Shown here: one piece after another, positions 391 to 2,240 of the stretch
Layout of the letters: the number at the start of each line of letters is the position of its first letter
Numbering within the stretch: position 1 is the first letter of the stretch
From: Paraglomus occultum
Lineage: Eukaryota > Glomeromycota > Glomeromycetes > Paraglomerales > Paraglomeraceae
DNA: 28,456 bases
Assembly (NCBI GenBank): GCA_910592205.1
Contig: CAJVPJ010000327.1
Span: forward strand, 1-28,456
Direction of reading: 5' to 3'
The notes under the pieces: generated by a model
Databases searched by the model: none
Told to the model about the DNA's origin: nothing
What the model saw: only the letters and a program-made list of their open reading frames with translations
Program-made: the position numbers and the translations under genes

Positions 391-450
391 TTACATCGCA
401 AAGTGGTCTAAAAACAGTGCATTGCCAATTGTGTTAAGTAATTGTATTGG

Positions 451-965
451 ACAATTAAATTGAATACTAATACGCCTTACAAATTGTTGTGTTCAATTAC
501 TAACATACGAGAAATCTTTAGAGATAACCAACAGACACAAATCACGCAAAAGGCCAAGATCTGTTACGCCAGAGTCAGTTCAGAACATCAACGAGACGAC
601 TTTGAATGACAAATCGCAAATCTTCGACAATACTACCCAGAATACGAAATCATCAGTGATATCGGATCGGAAACGCAGGGGGTTTTGGAACGAATACACA
701 CAGGAGGAATCGAAGAAGTGGTGGTTACCCGAAAGGTTTAATTTTTTTATTTACTCTGATTTTTATTGCCTTTATTTTTTACTAACTTTTTTTATTAGGA
801 CCGATTGTGTCGATTTGGATCCGAGCTTGTGGAATGGATCTTTGAGAAAAATGGGACTCGGCTCGTGGTACTCGTACGGATTTCAGTGCCGAAAGTAGTG
901 GAGCCAGAGAACTTGCGGAAGACTTACTCTCAATCGTCACAGTATTTGTGGCAAGACATAACGGA
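451..965 (+). pseudogene. tnpA: IS607 TnpA serine recombinase, broken, with an intron
   Basis: The frame starting near 451 reads LNTNTPYKLL, like the end of the MerR-type DNA-binding domain of IS607 recombinases. It continues with the catalytic-domain start KICYARVSSEHQRDD (about 556-600), where the first S of RVSS is the expected nucleophile. Further family blocks follow: QYYPEYEIISDIGS, EEVVVTRKDRLCRFGSELVEW (split by the intron at 736-798), KNGTRLVVL, and SRELAEDLL-like followed by VTVFVARHNG. A possible relic of the helix-turn-helix (KTVHCQLC) lies at about 409-434 in another frame. Damage seen: an in-frame TGA at 607-609 where the family has Arg, loss of several residues around the GSGLNFKR region (about 663-680), and a frameshift near 877-879. 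Intact relatives are about 190-220 aa. It cannot make a full product as it stands. Confidence 0.85.
736..798 (+). other. Spliceosomal-type intron inside the recombinase frame
   Basis: A 63-nt AT- and T-rich block begins GTTTAA and ends TATTAG. Removing it joins ...VVVTRK to DRLCRFG... in phase 0 and recreates the contiguous conserved recombinase block exactly. The polypyrimidine-rich 3' half and GT/AG ends match introns of neighbouring host genes. Bacterial IS607 genes have no introns, so this one was gained in a eukaryotic host. Confidence 0.85.
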
Positions 966-2069
966 ATGCCCAAGAAGAACAAGAGCTCCAAGATTCCAGC
1001 AGGCAAGACACAACGTATCTGTCTCTTTCCTACGCAAGAGGAGAAGTTGAAACTCAAACGCTGGATGGGAACAGCGCGATGGACTTACAATCGGTGTCTC
1101 GTAGCAGTCGAAAAAGAGGGTATCGAGCGGACAAAAAAAGCTCTACGAGCACAGTGTCTCAATGCCGTAAACTTCAATAATACTGAACTTCAATGGGTCC
1201 TTGAAACTCCTTACGATATTCGCGATGAAGCGATGAATGATTTACTTAAATCATATTCATCAAATTTGCTGCAAAACGGACGAAATTTAAGCTCTAAGAA
1301 AGATCAACAATCTATTGCAATTTTATCAAAACATTGGGGTAAATCTAAAGGAGTTTATATGTTTCTTTGTAAGATGAAGTCAGCACGACTTGTGATGAAT
1401 CGGCTTGGAGAATTTTATCTTTGTATTCCTCAACCGCTCAAGATATGGGCCGAAAATCAAGGTCTTACACAATGATGCAGTGATTGCTCTAGATCCGGAC
1501 ATTTATAACTGGATACGATCCGGGTGGACAAGCTGTAGAATGGGGCAAAAATGATATTAGTAGAATTTATCGGCTTTCTCAGATATATGACAAGATTCAA
1601 AGCAAACATGACTCTATTCCTGGAAAAGTACACAAGCGAAAACGCTATAAACTTCGTAGGGTCATGCTTCGTATACATAAAAAAATCCGTTGTCTTATTA
1701 ATGATTGTCACCACAAACTTGCCAAATGGCTGTGTCAAAGTTATCGTATTATCTTGATGTCCGAGTTTAAGACACAGGGAATGGTTAGGCGTGGAAAACG
1801 GCGAATTCGTTCTAAGACTGCGCGGATGATGTTAACATGGTCCCACTTCCGATTCCTCGCCAATATCTTCTACATAAGTTCGTGAATATCCATGGTGTCG
1901 TAATTATATGCACTGAAGAATATACCAGTAAGACATGTGGGTGCTGTGGTCATATCCATCGAAATTGGGTGGATCCAAAGTGTTTCGTTGCCCAAGTTGT
2001 ACAGCTGAGCTTGATCGGGATATCAACGGTGCTCGCAATATACTAGCCGGTTGCTGGGGATCTTCATGA
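948..2069 (+). pseudogene. tnpB: TnpB/Fanzor2-type RNA-guided nuclease, broken
   Basis: Four segments in successive frames make up one TnpB/Fanzor-like protein. The first (948-1475, best start ATG 966) has the N-terminal block TQRICLFPTQEEK...RWMGTARWTYNRCL. Next is RuvC-I, VIALDP, at 1480-1497 with the catalytic Asp at 1492-1494; the expected GVRT after it is deleted, with a frame change near 1500. The third segment (about 1502-1860) reads FITGYDPGG...LMSEFKTQGM...SKTARMMLTWSHFRF, where the E of SEF is at the RuvC-II position. The frame changes near 1856 to RQYLLHKFVNIHGVVIICTEEYTSKTCGCCGH, then near 1964 to LGGSKVFRCPSCTAELDRDINGARNILAG, ending at TGA 2067-2069. CxxC pairs form the zinc ribbon, and Asp 2013-2015 and 2019-2021 belong to RuvC-III. 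TEEYTSKTC may hold the alternative glutamate known in Fanzors. It is inactive as read. The start lies in frame with the end of tnpA. Confidence 0.87.
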
Positions 2070-2240
2070 ACATGTATATTTCCTTATTGGGCATGATCAG
2101 AAATGTGATGTTTTATTAGGAATGTATAGGTTTAATTGTAGGCGTGCTGACTTGACTGAATGTGTACCTAGTACATGTACGTGACAGCGGGAATAAACTT
2201 TGTGATTGGGCGAGTGTAATTTTTGACTATTACCTTTTTT
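2070..2240. other. Right flank of the IS607 element, possible relic guide-RNA region
   Basis: In TnpB/Fanzor elements the guide (omega) RNA comes from the 3' end of the nuclease gene and the right end of the element. This stretch is where that RNA would lie. A 10-bp palindrome, GTACATGTAC, sits at 2171-2180. I cannot define the RNA or the element end from sequence alone. Confidence 0.3.

Follow-up and report, generated by a model that had tools for sequence, protein, structure and literature searches.

A decayed IS607-type element with a Fanzor2 gene on a Glomeromycotina-like contig, and a probable spliceosomal-type intron in its tnpA

The window analysed here, a stretch of 28,456 nucleotides, is contig C327 of a 32.3-Mb genome in 1408 contigs. 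At about 481–2145 of its + strand it carries a decayed IS607-type element, in which the remnant of a serine-recombinase gene (tnpA, 481–968) is followed by a Fanzor2 nuclease gene (about 966–2066; Table 1). Direct observation covers the remnants of both genes with their order and family, the occurrence of the element in many copies, and the boundaries of an intron in tnpA with its presence or absence across copies. Very probably, this is a dead copy of a transposon whose ancestry is bacterial and which has been resident in Glomeromycotina-like fungi for a long time, and it belongs to a clade whose tnpA has gained an intron. IS607-linked Fanzor2 elements have already been published (Bao and Jurka, 2013, PMC3627910; PMC10711439, 2023), and so has the occurrence of Fanzor2 in fungi (PMC10432273). 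With this kind of element known, what appears to be novel, judging from the sequence, is the spliceosomal-type intron in an IS607 tnpA.

An initial annotation of this DNA had described an IS607-type transposon at 391–2069, with a recombinase followed by a TnpB/Fanzor protein. The profiles of both proteins are indeed found in the expected order, with IS607 TnpA and TnpB/Fanzor matches within 541–2069, and the three motifs named at the time (RKDRLCRFG, SKTCGCCGH and DRDINGARN) are present on the + strand. The element stands, but its limits have to be moved: the alignment of the window to relatives begins at about 481, not 391, and the right end common to other copies lies near 2145, past 2069. 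The left end and most of the HTH domain are unrecognisable in the window (tblastn with relative P0226); the catalytic profile of a serine recombinase is present there, and an intact N-terminal HTH sequence is found in relatives P0226 and P0227. Profile searches were run on the separate open stretches of the window, and all NCBIfam matches fall under the curated cut-off and the OrfB match under that of Pfam, as expected from broken pieces; the HTH and TNB models are matched above their own cut-offs. The decay that had also been recognised consists of an in-frame TGA at 607–609 and several frame breaks. The window tnpA is without an internal stretch that its relatives have, and the Fanzor frame is interrupted several times, in its C-terminal part at about 1882–1900 and 1965.

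Table 1. Parts of the element in the window, with the sequence features and matches on which each part is based.
Feature	Positions	Strand	Sequence features	Basis
tnpA exon 1 remnant	481–735	+	End of HTH domain and N-terminal half of serine-recombinase catalytic domain (YARVSSEHQ)	tblastn with exon 1 of relative P0226 (residues 41–132 of 132); IS607 transposase profile, 499–735, E 3e-9
tnpA intron (best reading)	736–798	+	63 bp, spliceosomal-type; AAG/GTTTAA ... TACTAAC (780–786) ... TTATTAG/GAC	
tnpA exon 2 remnant	799–968	+	DRLCRFGSELVEWIFEKNG ... ELAEDLLSIVTVFVARHNG; one frame break at ~870	IS607 transposase model (NCBIfam NF033518), 799–1047, E 1.1e-5, and weak C-terminus match, 846–1472, E 0.028; tblastn, 799–873 and 867–968
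Fanzor2 N-terminal half with HTH_OrfB_IS605	966–1472	+		HTH_OrfB_IS605 (PF12323), E 4.6e-7, and TnpB models (IS200_TnpB), E 5e-5, on 846–1472
Fanzor2 RuvC-I region to RuvC-II region	1472–1882	+	ALDP, frame broken right after DP; ILMSEFKTQGM	guided_TnpB, E 1.1e-9, and OrfB, E 1.2e-4, on 1493–1882; best PDB sequence match mimivirus L79 9b0l, E 1e-3
Fanzor2 alternative Glu, C4 zinc ribbon and RuvC-III	1858–2066	+	CTEEYTSKTC (first E at 1915–1917); LDRDINGARN	Cas12f1-like TNB zinc ribbon (PF07282), 1816–2043, E 1.4e-7
3′ non-coding part and right end	2067–2145	+	TTGTAGGCGT	Right ends of ten copies aligned

The assignment of the nuclease gene to Fanzor2 is supported by a profile of 40 relatives, chosen from the 120 listed among 2452 found. 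Against the PDB, the best match of this profile is the mimivirus Fanzor2 L79 (9b0l; E 1.9e-45, nearly full length), the closest solved relative by sequence profile; the next PDB match has an E value of 4e-17, and TnpB 8bf8 reaches only 1.7e-11. L79 is a viral protein with a 520-aa chain, whereas the complete-looking close relatives here (P0001–P0004, 75–84% identity) have 406–452 aa, each in a single open frame on a short contig. The Fanzor fingerprint combines DPG in RuvC-I with a Glu placed six residues ahead of the zinc finger (PMC10711439). This DPG and alternative-Glu fingerprint of published Fanzor2 is shared by 109 of the 120 listed relatives, as scored by a regular expression with slightly wider spacers than in that work, and the canonical Glu position is variable among them (E in 34, K in 39, and others). 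In the window copy the alternative Glu is kept, and the DPG is no longer readable, interrupted by a frame break. Profile and fingerprint together uphold the earlier proposal of a Fanzor/TnpB-type nuclease. The gene lies in an IS607 element of a eukaryote, with tnpA directly upstream on a eukaryotic contig, and the named species among the best matches are Diversispora epigaea (83% over 67% of the query), Rhizophagus clarus and Gigaspora margarita.

In the window, the tnpA and Fanzor frames run together after ARHNG. An in-frame TnpA–Fanzor fusion was considered and rejected: alignment with copies C90, C379 and C711 shows that the window has lost a stretch there, and in C90 the Fanzor start codon (MDYVQPQ) lies out of frame within the 3′ end of tnpA. 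A start of this type fits the N-termini of P0001, P0003, P0004 and P0022. The start in the branch of the window and P0002 is unsure because the C90-type ATG is missing there; P0002 and P0005 begin further upstream. As a separate observation, an alternative frame of the window is open at 464–898, through both the tnpA region and the intron. An R. clarus gene model, P0034, follows this alternative frame too, and it is also the one in which the Fanzor frame of P0002 and P0005 continues upstream. This openness may reflect chance or overlapping coding.

The recombinase had initially been seen as decayed blocks only. The decay is real, but the gap between the two blocks, at 736–798, is best read from its sequence as a spliceosomal-type intron, which had been missed. 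The tnpA frame runs into a stop codon at the second codon of this segment, whose edges are GT and AG within an AAG/G proto-splice site, whose donor is GTTTAA or GTTTGA, and in which the TACTAAC of the window ends 12 nt before the last intron base. An intron at exactly the same position is present at five of the 15 tnpA sites displayed from this genome (the window copy, C379, C468, C711 and C90), with lengths of 43–63 bp, two of the five not being multiples of three, and its removal rejoins the conserved reading from TRK to D(R/Q)LC in the window copy, C711 and C90. Sequence identity is 0.70 within the intron; the 60-mers of exon sequence on its two sides reach 0.84 and 0.88. The intron is absent at nine of the 15 sites (C244, C52, C12, C291, C642, C493, C7, C924 and C1247), some of which are degraded around the intron position. 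C437, a candidate third intron site, was rejected, as there is an internal deletion there.

A different reading of 736–798 is that the segment is no intron and arose by slippage or by insertion of AT-rich sequence, to be passed on within one clade; elements of that clade would then have no working tnpA and would be mobilised in trans. The decay of all five intron-bearing copies of this genome, the unusual donor and the exact TACTAAC, kept only in the window copy and absent from the other four, would agree with such an origin. The exact GT-AG edges speak against it, as does the restoration of the conserved motif even where the length removed is not a multiple of three, and TnpA relatives add to this. 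Among the 120 listed (the best of 208), 109 are contiguous across the site, five cannot be classed, and the intron is seen in six, of which five end there, exactly at VVVTRKV or VVVIRKV, and one reads through. P0226 and P0227 have an intact exon 1, HTH included, and stop exactly at the intron position. P0212, judging from its protein sequence, reads through the intron, and its translation is compatible with TTACTAACT near the 3′ edge; two R. clarus gene models among the five unclassed relatives (P0168 and P0208) resume at DQLCRF, that is, at the same 3′ edge. On balance, an insertion or slippage product appears improbable.

As for the history of the spliceosomal-type intron, a quick tnpA tree of 135 short, gappy rows places the ten labelled carriers and C468 in one 15-row set (SH-aLRT 95). 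The same set holds two R. clarus models that are not labelled as carriers, the contiguous P0155, and C7, which has a very long branch and no visible intron. On this tree no fewer than three changes of the intron label are required, and the preferred reading of these sequences is a single gain in one clade, with losses or misplacements. P0155 itself is a relative of tnpA exon 2 (90%), contiguous at the intron site and located on an 818-nt contig; this contiguity, within the intron clade, may be explained by intron loss or by a spliced transcript.

The genome contains other families of the same kind. Less damaged copies had been expected elsewhere in it, and open stretches do occur in two other IS607-Fanzor2 families, in part truncated at contig edges, but no intact gene was seen among the copies in the stretches of contig viewed; the search suggested for intact copies led only to the complete-looking database proteins described above. 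In family B, the Fanzor piece C517 used as a query gives at least 43 matches, including cross-matches to the window's family (family A). Pieces of family B are found at contig ends (C980 and C1247), at contig starts (C778, C602, C812, C600 and C1155) and, as with C517, inside contigs; the tnpA pieces C980 and C1247 are 92% identical over 233 bp, and the assembly appears to break in the younger copies of this family. Contigs under about 10 kb seem to be missing from the assembly. Loci of family B (L087 1240–1736, L078 1299–1790, L091, L092, L093, L094 and L097) have a common left end, with GCTAATRATGAC in most of them. After TE, C1247 carries a different GT-AG segment, of 61 bp, whose removal restores IVVAHRDRLCRFA, and this segment is a candidate for a second, different tnpA intron. 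Both of its sides are visible only in C1247, since C980 ends inside the segment, and no further copy turned up when the pattern spanning its 3′ edge was searched for. In the third Fanzor2 group (C109, C1356 and C880) the C-terminal end is open and includes the alternative Glu; at its loci (L095, L096 and L005), the open ends of C109 and C1356 lie at contig starts, and C880 is a related piece.

By analogy with known systems, we infer recombination, a guide RNA, DNA cutting and actual splicing. As a serine recombinase whose N-terminus carries an HTH, a live TnpA would excise the element and insert it at a short core sequence, and Fanzor2, with the RNA of the right end, would cut matching DNA, with the result that the element is kept or spread. 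The clade of the window copy has very probably acquired a single spliceosomal intron in tnpA, which separates the half with the catalytic serine from the half with DRLCRFG, so that spliced nuclear mRNA would be the only source of full-length TnpA. That this dependence on splicing regulates transposition is speculation. A more far-reaching proposal, which seems unlikely, is that tnpA gained introns independently at least twice (in family A after TRK, and in family B behind TE, at a site six codons further upstream) and that the intron is a gate. In family A, unspliced RNA would end TnpA within a few codons, and the overlapping Fanzor2 frame would still be available; if this were true, splicing would set the balance between recombinase and nuclease.

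Published IS607-Fanzor2 elements likewise combine a tnpA serine recombinase with Fanzor2 in eukaryotes or their viruses (PMC3627910, PMC10711439). The element described here differs from them in its Glomeromycotina-like host and in a tnpA apparently split by a spliceosomal-type intron, and no word beginning with “intron” occurs in the main text of either article. In IStrons an intron is likewise associated with an IS607-type or IS605 element, but those introns are bacterial group I ribozymes that splice themselves (PMC4227781), whereas the one considered here has GT-AG edges, lies inside tnpA and, at only 63 bp, does not qualify as a group I ribozyme; no Rfam family reached its gathering score within the window. 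The IS607-family serine recombinase genes of Saccharomyces kluyveri were likewise acquired by a fungus and multiplied, but the available text mentions no Fanzor2 partner, and its single use of “intron” refers to mobile group I introns (PMC2715888). It is known in general that introns can be gained after bacterial gene transfer to fungi (PMC3584928).

No description of a spliceosomal intron in an IS607 tnpA was found in the titles and abstract openings of the open-licence papers listed. Jiang et al., in Science Advances in 2023, are said to have reported that Fanzor genes captured introns, which would likewise be a case of a mobile-element gene of prokaryotic ancestry gaining spliceosomal introns. 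Here, by contrast, the intron is in the recombinase partner, tnpA, and the Fanzor2 relatives P0001–P0004 are uninterrupted. Fanzors are the RNA-guided nucleases of eukaryotes. On the question of how two-gene elements from prokaryotes adapted to the nucleus, elements of the intron clade beside intronless sisters in one genome offer a before-and-after view. The complete-looking Fanzor2 proteins and mycorrhizal fungi are candidates for testing.

With regard to copy number, one RuvC segment has at least 35 matches on at least 26 contigs, the window's included; the figures are minima, as scoring was limited to the best candidates. The long copies C379, C90 and C711 align with one another over ~2 kb, with 72–78% identity in the main blocks. 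Nine copies were tested for the distribution of their mismatches to the window, and in six of them the third codon position is clearly favoured (C711, C90, C379, C291, C642 and C71; p below 1e-4), with rates by codon position of 0.20/0.15/0.40 against C90. The closest copy, C468, has little third-position excess (0.12/0.06/0.14, p 0.03), and the bias is absent or weak against C437 and C31. This bias indicates that the lineages diverged under selection and that the window copy died later. It would also suit a domesticated host gene built from Fanzor2, as opposed to a dead transposon copy, but the in-frame stop and the several frame breaks across both genes, the decay of the other copies seen and the weak bias against C468, as expected after death, make domestication very improbable.

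The gene next to the element encodes a kinesin (E 2.6e-29 for one exon). Eight of its introns, measured by hand-chosen GT-AG joins, have lengths of 46–108 bp; a GTTTGT donor is found among them, and three of the eight carry GTAAGT or GTGAGT, from which the GTTTAA or GTTTGA donor in tnpA deviates. At the other end of the contig lies a SET-MYND protein, whose best match overall has 89% identity and whose best named relatives, from Funneliformis and Ambispora, have 30–38%. The named relatives of the SET-MYND and Fanzor proteins, together with the intron-bearing kinesin, point to a Glomeromycotina-like fungus as the host, in agreement with the fungal-type genome proposed initially. Contamination of a fungal assembly by bacterial or viral DNA, conceivable in view of the mostly prokaryotic IS607-TnpB elements and of Fanzor2 in giant viruses (PMC3627910, PMC10432273), can be dismissed almost entirely, given the kinesin gene on the same contig, the spread of related pieces over at least 26 contigs, the fungal identity of the named close relatives, and scans with P0002 that found no relative in viral contig collections or in collections of prokaryotic genome contigs, scans which reach close relatives only. 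A TnpA relative compared with viral contigs gave one distant locus, L090. A further IS607 TnpA with 54% identity (P0137) is deposited under the insect Lygus hesperus and is possibly a contamination.

The right end is conserved between copies, as seen in the ten aligned, and the consensus fold energy is only −2.4, on a poor alignment. By analogy, 2067–2145 is presumed to be the end of the omega RNA scaffold. IS607 elements insert at a dinucleotide core and do not duplicate the target. The ends of the element were set where copies stop matching, and a GT seems to be common to both ends of family A, as deduced from three left ends and six of the ten right ends. The repeat at 2241–2353 was considered as a part of the element and rejected, being a separate inverted-repeat element of 113 bp, with 24-nt arms that are 88% complementary, between T runs. 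It occurs at no fewer than 35 other places with 86–100% identity (best 40 of 87 candidates scored), and it resembles a young MITE, situated about 95 bp beyond the right end of the transposon. Just after it, at ~2375–2395, lies a short GTTACC tandem repeat.
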